This document shows positions 24,129 through 59,518 of a DNA stretch of 64,000 nucleotides, piece after piece (position 1 is the stretch's first letter; each line of letters begins with the position of its first letter). Source of the stretch: a virus; IMG/VR virus record IMGVR_UViG_3300042522_001179, positions 1 to 64,000 of that record, one strand, 5' to 3'. A program made the position numbers and the translations under genes. Below the pieces are notes generated by a model. That model was not told the DNA's origin, did no database searches, and saw only the letters and a list, made by a program, of their open reading frames with translations.

Positions 24129-24497
24129 ATGTTTTGCAACGAGCACGAGCCCCTTGCTTTGCTAGTTGAATTAACGCCAAAACTTGCCAAGAAACGTTTT
24201 CGAGATGAAATTTATAAATCCTGGAACCATTGCTGTGGTTACTGTGGAGAGCCGGCAACAAGCTTAGATCATATAGTGCCCCGGTTTAAATCTGGATCTT
24301 CTAATCGCTATAATCTTTTGCCTGCTTGCAGGCGGTGTAACACCAACAAAGCCAGTGAAAAAATGCAAGAATGGTATTTAAAGCAGTCTTTTTTTGATGC
24401 CTTAAAACTTGAAAAAATTACCAACTGGATGCAGCAAGATACACTAGAATTACTACCCTGGAAGCCCAGGCTTGACGATAAAAATTTTGCTGCGTAA
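24129..24497 (+). CDS. HNH endonuclease, 122 aa
   Basis: Contains CGYCGEPATSLDHIVPR and later NLLPACRRCNTNKA: two CxxC zinc knuckles flanking the catalytic DH and an Asn, the HNH motif. Phages use such enzymes either as packaging-associated nucleases or as mobile homing endonucleases. It lies immediately before the 988-residue gene (3-base gap) and away from terminase, so a homing or free-standing role is more likely. TTAAAATAAG precedes it. Confidence 0.85.
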   Translation: MFCNEHEPLALLVELTPKLAKKRFRDEIYKSWNHCCGYCGEPATSLDHIVPRFKSGSSNRYNLLPACRRCNTNKASEKMQEWYLKQSFFDALKLEKITNWMQQDTLELLPWKPRLDDKNFAA

Positions 24498-50030: not shown

Positions 50031-50179
50031 TGACCAGCAACCTCACCCGGTTCTACCTAGAAGAGGAGTTTGAGTACGTCGCCAAGGCTCCCGTCATCGA
50101 CGTAGAAACTACGGAAGCTGACGAGGTTGAGCAAAAGCTCAAAGATCAAGATATTATTTATACACGCGTTGACTTGTGA
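50030..50179 (+). CDS. Small acidic hypothetical protein, 49 aa
   Basis: Begins in the TGATG shared with the membrane peptide and ends in a TGATG shared with the glycosyltransferase gene. The product is acidic (FYLEEEFEYVAK, TTEADEVEQKL), probably helical. Three-gene coupling supports translation. No family recognised. Confidence 0.55.
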   Translation: MTSNLTRFYLEEEFEYVAKAPVIDVETTEADEVEQKLKDQDIIYTRVDL

Positions 50180-50922
50180 TGTCCAAAGCACCACCCATTG
50201 AGATGATCGGTACCATGGTCCTTAACGGGGCCGATGATCTGTGGAATCATTTTGCAAGTATTGATCATCCCCTCAAACGTTATGTCATCATTGATAACTC
50301 TATGGGCAAGTACCCCGCAGTGCGGGGCACCATCGAACAAATCAAACAGGACAAACCTGAGCATATTGATGAAGTTGTAATACTTCAAAACAATTTGAAC
50401 GTCGGTTTCTCTGGTAGCGTCAATCAAATTGTTCGTCAGAATACCGACTGTTCATATTGGTGCATCTTTTCGGTGGATTGGCATCCACGCCCAGGTGAGC
50501 TAGCCAAACTGGCAGAGCGTCTTACCAAACCATTCACTCAGTTTCTATGCGACGAAACAATGAGTGGATATTCGGCTATGGTATTTAAGCCCCAACTAAT
50601 TCAAAAGGTTGGGCTAATGGACGAAAACTTTTTTCCCGCATACTTCGAGGACAATGATCATCGGTATCGCATGGAACTTACTGGGCTCTCATGGGATTAC
50701 TTTCAGATGGCCTTTGACCACAAAGTTAGCAGCACCTTGCACAGCAATGAGCAATTCAAAAACCGAAACAATGTCACATACCACAACAACGGAATGTATT
50801 ACCTTGAAAAATGGGGAGGATTCCCTGGAAACGAACGATACAAACATCCTTTCAACAGCAAAGCCCCAGTCTCCCACTGGAGCTATGATCCAAAACGAAG
50901 CGAGCAACAGCGATGGATTTGA
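50179..50922 (+). CDS. GT2-family glycosyltransferase, 247 aa
   Basis: ATG 50179 is chosen because it overlaps the previous stop. GT-A features: MVLNGADDLWNHF, YVIIDNSMG, then NVGFSGSVNQIV (glycan-binding loop) and CIFSVDWHP in place of the usual D-x-D, followed by FFPAYFEDNDHRYR with the ED acceptor motif. It opens a sugar cassette with a NAD-dependent epimerase and an RfbH-like dehydrase, so it may transfer the unusual deoxysugar they help make. Confidence 0.85.
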   Translation: MSKAPPIEMIGTMVLNGADDLWNHFASIDHPLKRYVIIDNSMGKYPAVRGTIEQIKQDKPEHIDEVVILQNNLNVGFSGSVNQIVRQNTDCSYWCIFSVDWHPRPGELAKLAERLTKPFTQFLCDETMSGYSAMVFKPQLIQKVGLMDENFFPAYFEDNDHRYRMELTGLSWDYFQMAFDHKVSSTLHSNEQFKNRNNVTYHNNGMYYLEKWGGFPGNERYKHPFNSKAPVSHWSYDPKRSEQQRWI

Positions 50923-51758
50923 GTCTTTACGGCGGGACGGGTATTATCGGCACTTATTTCAACGGTTTGTACGCTTGCAATAACATCCCACGCAACCAGC
51001 TTGAACCCCTGGGTGACGAGGTACTGTACTTAATCAGTACAACAGATAACACTACGTTCAAAGAAAATCCGTTTGTTGACGTAGATACTAATCTTGTGCA
51101 GCTTTTGCACAGGCTGGAAGCATGCCGTCGTGTTGGAATCAAGACATTTAACTTTGTAAGCAGTTGGTTTGTTTACGGCTCTAGTTACAACTGCCCCAAT
51201 GAAGAAGCCATCTGCGATCCCAAAGGGTTTTATTCCGTCACCAAGTATGCCGCAGAGAAGCTTTGCCGCACATACTGCACTGCCCATGGAATCAACTACC
51301 GCATCCTGCGTCTAGGCAATGTTTATGGCCATGATGGTTACGGTGATTACAGGCGCCATGCTTTGCATTACCTGATTAGGCAACTGAAGTGGGACCGGGA
51401 TATTAATGTTTACATCAATTTATCTCGCGACTACATCCATATCTTGGATACCTGTCGTGCCATTGACTTGATCTGCAGGCAAGGCATCCTTAACTCCACG
51501 TACAACATTGGCACAGGCATTGCAACACGCCTAGGCGATTGCCTGGACCAAGCCAAAGACTTACTTAAATCCAAAGCGTGTGTCCTTCGTTCCAATGTTC
51601 CTTGTGACTATGACCAAGCAATTAGATTTTCTTTGGACTGTGGCCGTCTTTTTAGGTTAGGATTTGAACCACAGATTGCCATCCAACAAGGCATCACAGA
51701 TTTATGTCTAAATCGAAAGTTCTGTACTCCGGACCCTACTTTGATGGAGCAGAAGTAG
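50913..51758 (+). CDS. NAD-dependent epimerase/dehydratase (SDR), 281 aa
   Basis: Extended SDR enzyme acting on a nucleotide sugar. The NAD site is GGTGIIGTYF (residues 8-17), the catalytic FVSSWFVYG and YSVTKYAAEK supply Ser and the Y-x-x-x-K pair, and LRLGNVYGHDGYG is typical of sugar epimerases. It overlaps the neighbouring genes on both sides, forming one operon with the GT2 and the RfbH-like dehydrase. Confidence 0.88.
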   Translation: MDLSLYGGTGIIGTYFNGLYACNNIPRNQLEPLGDEVLYLISTTDNTTFKENPFVDVDTNLVQLLHRLEACRRVGIKTFNFVSSWFVYGSSYNCPNEEAICDPKGFYSVTKYAAEKLCRTYCTAHGINYRILRLGNVYGHDGYGDYRRHALHYLIRQLKWDRDINVYINLSRDYIHILDTCRAIDLICRQGILNSTYNIGTGIATRLGDCLDQAKDLLKSKACVLRSNVPCDYDQAIRFSLDCGRLFRLGFEPQIAIQQGITDLCLNRKFCTPDPTLMEQK

Positions 51759-52960
51759 AGGCTGCTATCAAGACGCTTGAGAAAGGTGTCTGGTACCCAG
51801 CCGGTAAAGAGGTTGAAAAGTTTGAACGTCAGTTTTCAAAACGATTCAACTTCAAAGAATCTTTGATGGTCAACAGCGGTAGTTCCGCTAACCTTGTCAT
51901 GGTTGCTGCCCTTAAGGCGTACTATGAATGGCCTGATGGCGCTGAAATTATTGTCAGTGTTGTTGGCTTCCCCACTACTGTCAACCCCATCATTCAAAAT
52001 GGACTGACCCCCAAGTTTGTCGACATCACCTGGAGTGATCTAAACTGGGACCTTGATGAGGTTGAAGATGCAATCACAGACAAAACGGTGGCTGTATTTA
52101 GTAGTCCTGTTTTGGGGAACAGCTATGACATGGATCGTCTGGTCGATATTTGTGAACGCCGTCAAGTCAAGCTCATTGCTGATAACTGCGATTCACTAGG
52201 TTCCCGCTGGAATGATCTGTACCTAACAGAGTATGCAGTAGCTGCATCTTGTTCTTTTTATCCTGCACACCACATCACTACCCTTGAAGGTGGCATGGTG
52301 TCTTCTGGTAATCCAGAGCTCATTCGTTTAGCTCGCCAGTTTGCCTGGTGGGGACGCGACTGCTATTGCGTTGGTGCTTGCAACATGCTTGCCAACGGCA
52401 GTTGCAACAAGCGGTTTGATAAGTGGCTCGAGGATTACGATTGCGTGGTCGACCACAAGTATGTGTTCAGCCAGATTGGTTACAACCTAAAGCCTTTGGA
52501 TCTGCAAGGTGCAGTTGGTCAAGTTCAATTACGCAAGTTTGATGAAATCCACGACTTACGTCGTGATAATTATTCTTTTATCAAAGAATGTTTTGAAGGC
52601 TTCCCTTCTGAAGTACGTGTGATTGACGAAAAGCCACAAGCTGAAACGTCATGGTTTGGTGTGCCAATTGTATGTGACAATCCTAAAGTGAAGCATGCAC
52701 TTCAGCAGTATCTCGAAAAGAATGGTATTCAAACGCGCAATTATTTTGCTGGTAATCTACTACTGCATCCAGCTTACAAGCATCTTGGCAATCCCAAAGA
52801 TTATCCAAATGCATACGAAGTACTGAAACGCGTATTTTTCCTTGGTACTTCCCCTACCTTGATTGATAGCGACTTGAATTACATTAAGAAAATCCTTCAA
52901 GACTTCATGGCAACTGCCCCTATTGGTCTCGATGGATACAGCTCTGCTTTTGTTATGTAG
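51704..52960 (+). CDS. RfbH/E1-like CDP-sugar 3-dehydrase (DegT/AHBA fold, Fe-S), 418 aa
   Basis: A DegT/DnrJ/EryC1-fold protein in which the PLP-binding lysine is replaced by histidine: SFYPAHHITTLEGG (His189 at the lysine site). Four Cys are placed as in the E1 dehydrase: Cys162 (DNCDSLGS), then 57 residues, Cys220-x-Cys222 (RDCYC) and a further Cys at 234 (GSCNKRF). This is the signature of PMP/iron-sulfur 3-dehydrases that remove the C3 hydroxyl in 3,6-dideoxyhexose synthesis. An E3-type reductase partner is not seen, so the host may supply it. Unusual in a phage. Confidence 0.88.
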   Translation: MSKSKVLYSGPYFDGAEVEAAIKTLEKGVWYPAGKEVEKFERQFSKRFNFKESLMVNSGSSANLVMVAALKAYYEWPDGAEIIVSVVGFPTTVNPIIQNGLTPKFVDITWSDLNWDLDEVEDAITDKTVAVFSSPVLGNSYDMDRLVDICERRQVKLIADNCDSLGSRWNDLYLTEYAVAASCSFYPAHHITTLEGGMVSSGNPELIRLARQFAWWGRDCYCVGACNMLANGSCNKRFDKWLEDYDCVVDHKYVFSQIGYNLKPLDLQGAVGQVQLRKFDEIHDLRRDNYSFIKECFEGFPSEVRVIDEKPQAETSWFGVPIVCDNPKVKHALQQYLEKNGIQTRNYFAGNLLLHPAYKHLGNPKDYPNAYEVLKRVFFLGTSPTLIDSDLNYIKKILQDFMATAPIGLDGYSSAFVM

Positions 52961-55270: not shown

Positions 55271-55285
55271 TAGTACCTGGCTTTG

Positions 55286-55534
55286 GTGCCAACTTCCAAA
55301 GAAAAACTCCAGCGCAATCGGCAAAAGTTTCTTGAGTACAAGAAGACTTTAAATTGCCAGCACTGTGGGTTGAATGATCATCGTGTCCTTGAGTTCCACC
55401 ACGTTGGTGATAAGGACCATAACATATCAAATATGGTTAATCACGGATACGGCTGGCGCCGCATCGAAGAGGAAATAAAGAAATGTATTCCTCTATGCTG
55501 CAACTGCCATAGGTTAGAACACTGGGTTAATTAA
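55286..55534 (+). CDS. HNH endonuclease, 82 aa
   Basis: GTG at 55286 (a TTG at 55283 is also possible). CQHCGLNDHRVLEFHHVGDKD holds the first zinc knuckle and catalytic HH, WRRIEEEIKKCIPLCCNCHRLEH the second knuckle and final His. This is a compact HNH nuclease. It ends convergent with the 690-residue minus-strand gene, overlapping by 4 bases. A homing or free-standing role is likely, as with the HNH proteins at 24129 and 43596. Confidence 0.85.
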   Translation: MPTSKEKLQRNRQKFLEYKKTLNCQHCGLNDHRVLEFHHVGDKDHNISNMVNHGYGWRRIEEEIKKCIPLCCNCHRLEHWVN

Positions 55535-57603
55535 CGTCCAATAATACTGCCAGCGTTGAAACGGTTTAGTAAGTTTTGGAAACCAGATCCAGCTTTATCC
55601 CACCAAGGGCGACCTACAGTACGAGTACCAGCCACTGATCCATAGGGTACTTGAACAGGCTTACCGTTGAGAATAGCCGTTCCCATGCGTGGTTGAATAG
55701 TTGGTGTAGGCCCTGTATAAGTTGAATTAGGACTGGCGGGCTGGTTACGAGTAATCCAATCCTTTCCTGTTTGACCTTTATATGCACGGTTCAAGGCCTC
55801 ACTGGTTTCAATAATACCAAGTCCAGCAAGAGCTCCAGCAGCAACAGGTAGTCCGCCACCAACAATAGCTGCAGGCCTGGCGTATCCAGCCGCGCGTAAA
55901 CCTTGCAATGCTTTAGCGGTACCTCCACCAACAGCAGAACCAACTGCTGTGTTAACCGCAGCAGTAGTTCCTGCTTGCTGGTAATCACCACGAGCTAAAG
56001 CGTCAATTACCGCAGGGTCCATAGCGGTTCCAATAGCACCTGCAGCTAAGCCACCTAAACCTAACCCTTGAATTGGTTTTGATTGTTCAACTAAATTTGC
56101 AACTCTTTTATCTAATAGTTTGTTTGCGGCTTGTGGCCGCAATTTATCTCTATTAATAATGAGTTTACTTACACCTTCTTGTGATTTTCCAAAAGGATCC
56201 AAAGGATCTACTGGTGTTGAATACGTGTCAAGTTCTTGAATATTACTTGCGTTATAGCGAGGATATACATATTTAAATAGTTTATCAAACTCGTCTACTT
56301 TAAAAGGTGAGTAACTTGCTTTATCAGAAGGAGGTAAAATACCTAACTGACGCAAGTCCGTTTTACTTGCAAAAGAACCAGATGGGCTTATGCCTTGTCC
56401 TTGTGCAGGGAATCGACTTACTTTTCCTGCAATGGCTTCGGTCGGAGGCGTAGAAGGCTCTCCAACATTTGGAACAAGACGCGCAAAACGTTCAATTGCT
56501 TGAGACGTTGTTATGTTTTCCGCTTTTGCAAGTGCCTCTAAGTTTTCTTGTAGAATGTCTCCTGGTTTTTTATTTGAACTAAACCTTTCTTTTGTAGGTG
56601 TTTCTTTCTTGCTTTGATAGACAAAAGGCAAACCACGTTCCGCAAGTAACGCTTGCAAATCGCCAGTAGTCAGTTCTCCTCTTGCGCCAATCAAGTCTTT
56701 TCTAAAATGCATATCTCCGCTACTTCTAAGACCCCAAGAAGGACCGGTGCCAGGTCCCAACTCTTCATATTGTTTAAACCGCGCCCTTGGGTCTACTGTT
56801 AAATAATCTTTTTCAGTGTCAGCCGGGTTATCTATTTTAATACTTCCTGTATATAAATACTCTGCTTCTTTAGAAGGATCTGCATTAATGCGGGACACAT
56901 AGATTGAAGGATTAGTCCCGGCCAGTCTTTGCCCTTGCCCCCAGTTGCCTTCTGCATAAGTATATTGTGGCGCGCCTGTGTTTCCCCAAATATAACCAGC
57001 AGTTTGCCCTGGTATTTTTGCAGATAATGTATCTATTTTACGTCCAAGTCTAGCTGTTTCAGCGTTCCATCCTTCTGAGCTTTCAAATTGATTGATTGTT
57101 TTGCCTAGCTTATCTCCCAAGATTTCTGCATAATCTTGTGCAAAACGCGCAGAGTTTGGACCAGGTGTAACTGTGAGGGCTTGTATATCACCCTCGGGGA
57201 AGATTGTTTTGTTTGCAACAGCCTGTTGGTAAGAGCCTAGCTCTGAACTAGGTACACCTGGTTTTGAAGTTAAATACTCCGGATAAAACTTTTCAGTTTG
57301 ATATAGATTTTCGTTTTTAATGTTTTTATCAAATACGCGACTGGTTGCAATACTTTGGCTTAAGGGAATAATAGGAACAAGTGTTTTATTTGCAAGCACT
57401 CCACCACGAGAAGTATCAAACAAACCTGGGCCAGCACCGGGAAACATCCGTTGCGCTTCTTGTTGTTTAATTTTTGCCGTGTCTTCAAGCAGGTTTTGGA
57501 AAGGGAGAAAGGCTCCAGCAGGCGCAGCCAAACCAAAAGCACCTACGCCGCCAAGTGTTTGTAGTGCCTGTTTCTGTTCTTCTGTTAATTTTTTATCAGC
57601 CAT
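55531..57603 (-). CDS. Large virion-type protein with C-terminal Gly/Ala segment, 690 aa
   Basis: The first 30 residues include a Gly/Ala hydrophobic segment; the next 450 are polar with many Pro, Gly and Thr residues; about residues 520-620 form a second long Gly/Ala hydrophobic block; the end is Arg/Gly-rich. It resembles the ejection-type proteins at 665-5670 although it lies 50 kb away on the other strand. Its start overlaps the Dps-like gene stop by one base. Possibly a second copy-type internal virion protein. No family recognised. Confidence 0.75.
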   Translation of the reverse strand: MADKKLTEEQKQALQTLGGVGAFGLAAPAGAFLPFQNLLEDTAKIKQQEAQRMFPGAGPGLFDTSRGGVLANKTLVPIIPLSQSIATSRVFDKNIKNENLYQTEKFYPEYLTSKPGVPSSELGSYQQAVANKTIFPEGDIQALTVTPGPNSARFAQDYAEILGDKLGKTINQFESSEGWNAETARLGRKIDTLSAKIPGQTAGYIWGNTGAPQYTYAEGNWGQGQRLAGTNPSIYVSRINADPSKEAEYLYTGSIKIDNPADTEKDYLTVDPRARFKQYEELGPGTGPSWGLRSSGDMHFRKDLIGARGELTTGDLQALLAERGLPFVYQSKKETPTKERFSSNKKPGDILQENLEALAKAENITTSQAIERFARLVPNVGEPSTPPTEAIAGKVSRFPAQGQGISPSGSFASKTDLRQLGILPPSDKASYSPFKVDEFDKLFKYVYPRYNASNIQELDTYSTPVDPLDPFGKSQEGVSKLIINRDKLRPQAANKLLDKRVANLVEQSKPIQGLGLGGLAAGAIGTAMDPAVIDALARGDYQQAGTTAAVNTAVGSAVGGGTAKALQGLRAAGYARPAAIVGGGLPVAAGALAGLGIIETSEALNRAYKGQTGKDWITRNQPASPNSTYTGPTPTIQPRMGTAILNGKPVQVPYGSVAGTRTVGRPWWDKAGSGFQNLLNRFNAGSIIGR

Positions 57604-58157
57604 TAACCGTTCCGCAATGTAGCTTTAACAAACCAAGCAGCCTTAAAAGCTTGACCACACAGCTCAGCCATATAGTTTTGAATATCAATGGCCCCTACCT
57701 TGGCGGCAATAGGCTCAAGCTTCTTGGCTTTCATGCCAAGCTCCTCAAGGTTCTTGTAGTACACACCAAGCATGTCAGTGCCCTTGTAGGAAGTTACAGT
57801 TTGGATAGGAGGAGCTGCATCTTTAAGCCCACTACCACACATAGGAAGTAAATAATCCATGCTGCGAATAAACTCAGCAAGGGTATCAAACTGTTCAAGG
57901 TGCGTTTCATATTGATCTTTCAGGAATGCGTGGACGCCAAGGAAGTTACCGCCCTCGTAGTTCAGGTGGATAAGATGTGACTGTGTCTCCAGCTCCTTGA
58001 GGTAAGCACACAGAGAGATGCATTGCTGGATGAATGCACCTACATCACCACCAGCCTTGGACTTGGCAGGAGCTTTGGGTTTGTCCTGGGGCTGAGGAAC
58101 GGGTTGAACCTGAGGGGTTTCAGTCACCTGGTACTGCTGAGGGGCAGGGGTATACAT
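57603..58157 (-). CDS. dps: Dps-like ferritin (mini-ferritin), 184 aa
   Basis: ATG 58157 chosen over a GTG at 58163. After a disordered Pro/Gln-rich 45-residue N-terminus comes a four-helix ferritin-like region. The Dps ferroxidase set is complete: His64 and His76 (HLNYEGGNFLGVH), Asp91 and Glu95 (QFDTLAEF), with the exact 12-, 15- and 4-residue spacings of bacterial Dps. Dps binds DNA and stores iron while detoxifying peroxide. In a phage it could protect DNA from oxidative damage in infected, light-exposed cells. The C-terminus is longer than in most Dps proteins. Confidence 0.85.
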   Translation of the reverse strand: MYTPAPQQYQVTETPQVQPVPQPQDKPKAPAKSKAGGDVGAFIQQCISLCAYLKELETQSHLIHLNYEGGNFLGVHAFLKDQYETHLEQFDTLAEFIRSMDYLLPMCGSGLKDAAPPIQTVTSYKGTDMLGVYYKNLEELGMKAKKLEPIAAKVGAIDIQNYMAELCGQAFKAAWFVKATLRNG

Positions 58158-58198
58158 AGTCACATGGCAATAGTACTAGTTTATCAGTTATTAACGCC

Positions 58199-59518
58199 TC
58201 ATCTCGATACCTCTTCCCAATCCATAGATGCAAGTACATCAGAACCAGATTGTGCACTACTACATGCCAAAGTTAATTCTGTAGCTGTACCCGTGAGACC
58301 ATTACGTTCCAGTTGGAAAGCAAACAACGCTTCTTTCAAGATGTCAACAACAGTAGATCCTTGGTTGGAACCATTGGCAAAACCACTGGCAAGGATGCGT
58401 CCTGTACCAATCGTAAAAGATGTACCAGTGATGTTGTATTCAACGGAAGAAGAAGCTCCAGTGGTATTCCATGATCCGGCTGAGGTTGTGCCACCAACAA
58501 TAACTTTCCAGTTGTAGTCTGAGTTGTTGGTAATCCCCATGATTGATAACGCAGTCAAGATAACGATTGCGTCAAGACGGGTTGATTTAAGACGGATAGA
58601 AACTACAGGATATTCAGTAGAAGCATTTGTTAAATCACGCGGAGATGCAACTGGAGTTCCAATGGCAGACTGTGCACCACGTAATTCATATCCCCCTTCA
58701 GACAAGACGGTTGAGCAAACTTGTTTTAACGTACTGCTGCTTGCCGTTGTTCCAACATTAGTAATTTCATAACGCAACGGCAAGGATGCCGTTGTTATAT
58801 AGGTGGATGTAATTAAGTTGGCGTGATGGAATGAATGACAATGGATAAATGCACCATTGATTACAAACCCTGCACGCACGGTGCCAAGACCAAGCCATTC
58901 AATATCAAACCAAAGGATCTGCGCTTTGCTGATATCAAGGGTAAAACCAGACGGCCCGTTGCCATCTAGTTTATCAATGTTCCAGTTGGCTTGAGCTACT
59001 CGTGTTTCAGCAAGACTTCCACTTACAGAGCTACGCTCAACAAATGCCGGCTCTGTAGTACCACTGACTTCCAGGTACATACCGTTGGCTGCACCGTAGT
59101 AACCAACACGCTGTCGTAAGTTCGCCTTTGCAGCATTCATTACAAAGGTTGACATGAACAACAGGGATTTCCCTGGTTGATATGAACAAACCTTGTTGGT
59201 TTCCCTGATGATCTCAGAGCCAGATGCGGTAGTTACATTGAGATCAACAAGACCTTCGTTTGCATTGAATGCGTATGTAGCGCCAGTACCACTAGATGTA
59301 GACCACAAACCATTGTCGTTATAACGATGGCTTGAGTCGAATAAAGTCAGAGGTGCTGATACACGTGTGCGTCCAAAAGCATCACCTGCCATACCAGCGG
59401 GTTGTACATAAGTACTTGAGCCACTTGCAGTGACAACCTCTAGGGGATGCCCACTGCAAGTCTGCACTTTTTCTACGTGATATAGATTTTCGTTCTGGGG
59501 ATCTCTGTATAACGGCAT
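58199..59518 (-). CDS. Virion structural protein, tail or fibre type, 439 aa
   Basis: Begins MPLYRDPQNENLYHVEKVQ and continues with a Thr/Ser/Gly/Val-rich, all-beta sequence with RVSAPLTLFDSSHRY near residue 50. This combination recalls a structural protein widespread in aquatic tailed phages. It is on the minus strand, apart from the main virion module, like 41975. Exact location in the particle unknown. Confidence 0.7.
   Translation of the reverse strand: MPLYRDPQNENLYHVEKVQTCSGHPLEVVTASGSSTYVQPAGMAGDAFGRTRVSAPLTLFDSSHRYNDNGLWSTSSGTGATYAFNANEGLVDLNVTTASGSEIIRETNKVCSYQPGKSLLFMSTFVMNAAKANLRQRVGYYGAANGMYLEVSGTTEPAFVERSSVSGSLAETRVAQANWNIDKLDGNGPSGFTLDISKAQILWFDIEWLGLGTVRAGFVINGAFIHCHSFHHANLITSTYITTASLPLRYEITNVGTTASSSTLKQVCSTVLSEGGYELRGAQSAIGTPVASPRDLTNASTEYPVVSIRLKSTRLDAIVILTALSIMGITNNSDYNWKVIVGGTTSAGSWNTTGASSSVEYNITGTSFTIGTGRILASGFANGSNQGSTVVDILKEALFAFQLERNGLTGTATELTLACSSAQSGSDVLASMDWEEVSR

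Follow-up and report, generated by a model that had tools for sequence, protein, structure and literature searches.

Dps proteins typically have a short helix between helices B and C, and the 24-mer ferritins and bacterioferritins carry intrasubunit di-iron ExxH motifs. The canonical ferroxidase centre of Dps consists of five residues (PMC6675082). Most solved Dps structures have a single iron at the site, and in L. innocua Dps this iron is held by the equivalents of His64, Asp91 and Glu95 of the protein described here (PMC7762939). The cyanobacterial NpDps4 has a non-ligating Asn at the fifth position, yet oxidises iron with O2 (PMC6675082, PMC7762939). DNA binding by Dps is usually through positively charged N-terminal tails (PMC7762939). 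This kind of Dps is already known in phage, as a homologue in Synechococcus phage S-EIV1 was annotated earlier; our literature search did not find a functional study of any phage Dps.

The window that we analysed is a 64,000-nucleotide stretch of DNA, positions 1 to 64,000 of IMG/VR record IMGVR_UViG_3300042522_001179, which is 64,182 bases in total. Judged by its sequence the genome is that of an S-EIV1-like cyanophage, being largely colinear with S-EIV1 (KJ410740): the terminases are 86% and the major capsid proteins 88% identical, and many other genes also correspond. This colinearity makes a freshwater Synechococcus-type host likely. The initial annotation had spoken of an oxygen-producing host, which fits, since S-EIV1 was isolated on such a host (Synechococcus).

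The Dps gene and its fold

57603..58157, minus strand: Dps-family mini-ferritin gene, 184 aa, identified by Pfam, PHROGs, PDB sequence, AlphaFold and structural alignment

The open reading frame is uninterrupted over its 184 codons, and its product, which starts with MYTPAPQQ, is a real Dps-family mini-ferritin. The sequence matches the ferritin superfamily: Pfam Ferritin PF00210 is hit with an E-value of 2.1e-10 and 41.1 bits, above the curated cut-off of 24.5 bits, and phrog_3636 in PHROGs with an E-value of 5.6e-27. A sequence search of the PDB gave Dps/NapA matches (E 4e-6), among them H. pylori NapA, C. jejuni Dps, Treponema TpF1 and Mycobacterium Dps, and a profile search also pointed to Dps. 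We rejected an ordinary 24-mer ferritin or bacterioferritin because there is no ExxH motif in the 184-aa sequence, as read directly, and because the nearest PDB sequence matches are Dps. There is no second Dps copy in the window, nor in the first 80 loci that we fetched.

We predicted the monomer with AlphaFold2, using an alignment of the window protein and the proteins from the fetched loci. The mean pLDDT was 83.6, and about 95 in the core. Helices are predicted at residues 36-66, 72-99, 108-114, 126-153 and 157-183, which gives a four-helix bundle that has the short BC helix and lacks a fifth helix at the C-terminus. In the Foldseek and VIA-align rankings, subunits of Dps dodecamers came first or close to first (TpF1, PA0962, MrgA, T. 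elongatus Dps), and the best of these aligned over about 145-150 residues with Z of 20-22 and rmsd of 1.6-2.3. The initial annotation had called the product a Dps-like ferritin and had named a model lacking the ferritin bundle as one outcome that would speak against it. The monomer has the bundle and the short BC helix, and together with the family matches (Pfam, phrog_3636 and PDB) it bears the description out.

An old gene of the phage lineage

We found relatives of the phage Dps in 191 candidate stretches of viral contigs. A scan of prokaryotes with one genome per species, 84,980 species in all, gave two matching contigs (L083 and L084), both from a single metagenome-assembled genome (MAG) labelled 'Euryarchaeota' (SP67). 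Their Dps relatives are 44% identical and keep the four ligands discussed below. The bin is probably contaminated with phage, since L083, the contig that we examined, carries other phage-like genes.

Our tree set the S-EIV1-like proteins and those of L083 and L084 beside nine Dps from the PDB or E. coli, four encoded on plasmids and three from Streptomyces phages. The E. coli Dps and NpDps4 sequences were entered by hand, and that of NpDps4 matched PDB 5hjf along its whole length. The S-EIV1-like sequences group with those of the MAG in a single clade, whose branch measures 3.0 changes per site and has 100/100 support, and the Streptomyces phage Dps lie apart from it, grouped with E. coli. By structure-based alignment, the phage Dps is 13-17% identical to solved cyanobacterial Dps, all of them PDB entries; identity to H. 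pylori and Treponema Dps is 22-23%.

These results bear on whether a host dps gene was recently captured or has contaminated the assembly. We reject this reading, to which we give next to no credence, and found no support for it in these searches or in the tree. The clade is deep and far from every sampled cellular Dps, on its long and fully supported branch; identity is lower to cyanobacterial Dps than to H. pylori and Treponema Dps; and the 191 viral stretches stand against two cellular-bin matches from one MAG whose examined contig is phage-like. The phylogeny that the initial annotation asked for, as a guard against recent host contamination, thus gives an old phage clade, and its description of a virally encoded mini-ferritin holds for a gene that sits in an S-EIV1-related phage and belongs to that clade.

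To look at prevalence we used contigs picked by their capsid gene (MCP) and not by Dps. Dps was found in all six of the capsid-selected contigs longer than 80 kb and in 8 of the 14 longer than 40 kb. One more of the latter had 3' fragments only, and the remainder may be incomplete. The gene looks to be near-core in the S-EIV1-like lineage. For pairs with estimable dS, dN/dS in the Dps core was 0.02-0.14, values that are rough because most pairs have a dS close to or beyond saturation, and they point to a gene under purifying selection. The picture is of a gene long and stably kept in S-EIV1-like cyanophages, near-core there, and not of a stray host gene.

The ferroxidase site

57966..57968, minus strand: His64, ferroxidase ligand (E. 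coli His51), invariant in 61/61 and aligned with other Dps
57930..57932, minus strand: His76, ferroxidase ligand (E. coli His63), invariant in 61/61
57918..57920, minus strand: Lys80, at the fifth canonical position (E. coli Asp67), lacking an acidic residue; K in 45 and G in 16 of 61
57885..57887, minus strand: Asp91, ferroxidase ligand (E. coli Asp78), invariant in 61/61
57873..57875, minus strand: Glu95, ferroxidase ligand (E. coli Glu82), invariant in 61/61

The four core intersubunit residues His64, His76, Asp91 and Glu95 follow the pattern H-x11-H-x14-D-x3-E, which is the exact Dps spacing, and our alignment of 61 distinct viral homologues has each of them without exception. The initial annotation was right about these four residues and their spacing, as their codons in the window sequence confirm. 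It had also stated that all ferroxidase ligands are intact, and this is true of four of the five canonical positions only: the fifth is Lys80 here, and across the family it is Lys (45/61) or Gly (16/61) and never acidic. Among the 16 other Dps in the alignment, cellular and Streptomyces phage, 14 have Asp or Glu at the same position, one has Met and NpDps4 has Asn, so that Lys or Gly is unique to the phage clade among the aligned Dps. The phage proteins thus fall outside the canonical five-residue subclass, which has Asp or Glu at E. coli position 67. They stay within the wider Dps family, because NpDps4 and others also lack this residue (PMC6675082).

As read from the alignment, site A (His64, Asp91, Glu95) would be complete and site B (His76) weakened by the change from Asp to Lys or Gly. 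In addition, the conserved Dps Trp beside the first His is Leu or Phe in the phage Dps, and His86 and Cys107 are additional invariant residues. With the fifth residue and the Trp both changed, ferroxidase activity may be weak or absent. The expectation of the initial annotation, that iron oxidation is probably functional given intact ligands, does not carry over to a site whose site-B carboxylate is replaced clade-wide, and activity is therefore uncertain. NpDps4 is active with its Asn and most solved Dps have one iron, so that we regard iron oxidation by the phage Dps as plausible but probably altered.

We also considered a His-type ferroxidase centre, with His at E. coli position 78 and at the equivalent of His164, and rejected it. 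Asp91 is invariant, and at position 176, the His164 equivalent, the phage alignment has mostly Phe, Gln or Met, with His never among the common residues.

The altered site raises an alternative, that this is a DNA-organising Dps with a crippled ferroxidase. Lys80 would leave at best a mononuclear site, and the Lys tail would serve to coat, condense or physically shield the phage DNA. Lys or Gly in 61/61 proteins, found in no other aligned Dps, speaks for it, as does a Lys patch in the tail that is kept while the remaining tail drifts (see below). The four ligands, on the other hand, are invariant down to 66% identity and are kept even in the 44%-identical MAG proteins, and this counts against lost iron chemistry because such invariance would be unexpected if the chemistry were lost. 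A single iron in most solved Dps, bound in L. innocua by the counterparts of the three site-A residues (PMC7762939), and a working NpDps4 with its Asn (PMC6675082) further weaken the case. We consider a crippled ferroxidase rather unlikely. Loss of the fifth ligand is a clade-wide feature and provides a natural test of which Dps function, iron oxidation or DNA binding, the virus needs.

The N-terminal tail and the proposed function

58053..58157, minus strand: disordered N-terminal tail, residues 1-35, Pro/Gln-rich; pLDDT <50, MYT start conserved in relatives
58056..58082, minus strand: Lys patch, residues 26-34 (KPKAPAKSK), putative DNA-binding element by its conservation in 61 proteins

The initial annotation had described an extra Pro/Gln-rich tail of about 45 residues. 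The composition is as described (8 Pro and 7 Gln in 36 residues), but the disordered stretch covers residues 1-35, and a conserved Lys cluster had gone unmentioned. This cluster, K26-P-K-x-P-x-K-S-K34, is the best-conserved part of the tail. Across the 61 proteins K26, P27, P30 and K34 are invariant and K28, K32 and S33 are nearly so, with K or R at 28 and 32. The tail has only four Lys (K26, K28, K32 and K34) against two acidic residues, a point against the reading that we prefer below. It diverges faster than the core, yet is constrained in most comparisons. With residues 1-35 disordered and the KPKxPxKSK patch, the phage protein has the positively charged flexible tail of many, though not all, Dps. 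By analogy with those proteins, the tail may bind DNA.

Our preferred reading, which we believe somewhat more than we doubt it, is that the most likely function is that of a DNA-binding dodecameric cage that takes up Fe(II) and shields phage DNA from Fenton damage. Protection of phage DNA by Dps is plausible. Twelve subunits would assemble into the usual Dps cage, and Fe(II) would be bound at the intersubunit site by His64, Asp91 and Glu95 of site A together with His76 of the weakened site B. The Fe(II) would be oxidised by H2O2 or O2 and the iron stored as Fe(III), with the tail tethering the cage to DNA. In an infected cyanobacterium that is illuminated and evolving oxygen, the cage would remove Fe(II) and peroxide near the replicating phage DNA and limit Fenton damage.

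The same cage could instead serve iron management and not DNA protection, by sequestering iron from degraded host photosystems during infection. Membership in the ferritin family, the iron ligands and a relative isolated on an iron-rich photosynthetic host are consistent with this. However, it leaves the conserved Lys patch unexplained, and we saw no sequence sign of iron release or transfer; we think it very unlikely. With S-EIV1 in culture, it can be tested directly whether phages control iron and oxidative damage in the cells that they infect.

Gene neighbourhood

58199..59518, minus strand: virion structural protein gene (phrog_1645, 5e-146), directly upstream of Dps
58168..58187, minus strand: promoter-like element CTGATAAACTAGTACTATTG, extended -10-like, upstream of the Dps start and present in 47/52 distinct upstream regions
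55531..57603, minus strand: gene for a 690-aa protein with a C-terminal GKPVQVPYGSVAG motif, in translational coupling with Dps through a TAATG overlap; hypervariable slot
55534-55680, minus strand: GKPxxVPxGSVAG C-terminal region, also in L004, L009, L043, L045, L049, L066, L071, L076 and L082

Upstream. The element CTGATAAACTAGnACTAtTG stands between the structural gene and Dps, some 11-30 nt ahead of the ATG of Dps. Of the 52 distinct Dps upstream regions, 47, that of S-EIV1 among them, keep it at a near-fixed distance, and it looks like an extended -10 promoter. Elsewhere in the window only one weaker site scored above shuffled sequence, at 24436-24455 on the plus strand, where a 988-aa ORF of the structural region begins 65 nt further on, and S-EIV1 has few. 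Similar weaker sites precede some structural-region genes. With so few further sites a late regulon is suggestive only, and late expression of Dps is a guess.

Downstream. The start of the 690-aa gene overlaps the Dps stop as TAATG, and a TGATG or TAATG junction follows Dps in about 45 of 81 loci. In the relatives (L002-L082) the slot after Dps is filled by at least eight unrelated-looking protein types, or by nothing. The 690-aa protein has no Pfam or PHROG match and no relative that we could find in the annotated phage collection, and its AlphaFold model (pLDDT 32) is unusable. Several otherwise dissimilar downstream proteins, that of S-EIV1 among them, have the GKPxxVPxGSVAG motif in common. 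It lies about 33-43 residues from the protein end, and within these loci it occurs only at the slot downstream of Dps. The coupled hypervariable gene points to an uncharacterised polymorphic protein family.

The slot gene of S-EIV1 (L082:15444-16910) is labelled 'sulfate adenylyltransferase' and has no Pfam or PHROG match; judging from its sequence, the label is probably wrong. One further locus (L241, G033:36500-40214) has the end of a Dps gene, an HNH-like endonuclease ORF, then a repeat of the Dps 3' end and another kind of variable gene. From this arrangement, which looks like homing or cassette exchange, the slot may be a hotspot of recombination. In the window, where the variable gene ends, the opposite strand has an 83-aa ORF (55283-55534, plus strand) that by eye resembles an HNH endonuclease, and S-EIV1 has an 80% identical counterpart in the same place. 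At 50176-52960 (plus strand) there are consecutive genes for a glycosyltransferase, a nucleotide-sugar epimerase and an aminotransferase, unmatched in S-EIV1, which are possibly a sugar-modification cassette.

The neighbours on both sides suggest that Dps might be associated with the virion: it would be packaged, or act jointly with the structural protein and the variable protein coupled to it, perhaps in an internal or ejected complex. The phrog_1645 gene precedes Dps in 60 of 81 loci, the downstream overlap recurs in the window and in about 45 loci, and the shared C-terminal motif occurs nowhere else in these loci. On the other side, the phrog_1645 gene is structural in many cyanophages outside the lineage (it is found in many marine cyanophages and HMO-2011) and is not the neighbour of Dps in S-EIV1, many relatives have another downstream gene or none, and Dps has its own promoter-like element. 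We judge virion association to be unlikely. A two-gene system is harder still to credit and we mention it as speculation: a DNA- and iron-binding Dps cage would be co-translated with a swapped polymorphic partner that bears the GKPxxVPxGSVAG tag and might load onto the cage or be packaged with it, and Lys or Gly at the iron site would mark an altered role.

Comparison with known Dps proteins

The closest described protein is the 'DNA-binding ferritin-like protein' of S-EIV1 (AHV82153.1, KJ410740), an orthologue that is 66-69% identical to the window Dps. It has the same start, tail motif and upstream element and a coupled downstream gene, and its fifth position is Gly, so that it belongs to the same Lys/Gly type. 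It differs in having another upstream neighbour, and its downstream gene shares only the C-terminal motif, being otherwise unrelated.

With cellular Dps (E. coli, L. innocua, B. subtilis MrgA, H. pylori NapA, T. elongatus) the phage Dps shares the fold with its BC helix, the intersubunit His/His/Asp/Glu at the same spacing and, in several cases, a flexible basic N-terminal tail. Identity to these proteins is about 13-24%. The phage proteins differ in that the fifth Asp or Glu is Lys or Gly, the Trp after the first His is Leu or Phe, and His86 and Cys107 are extra invariant residues. They resemble the His-type cyanobacterial Dps (NpDps4, TeDpsA) in having no carboxylate at E. coli position 67, where NpDps4 has Asn (PMC6675082), but they keep Asp91 where the His type has His78, and have Phe, Met or Gln where it has His164. 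The Streptomyces phages Mildred21, Emma1919 and Coruscant also encode Dps. Theirs are shorter (about 133 aa), occupy a separate place in the tree and have E. coli-type ligands including Asp67.
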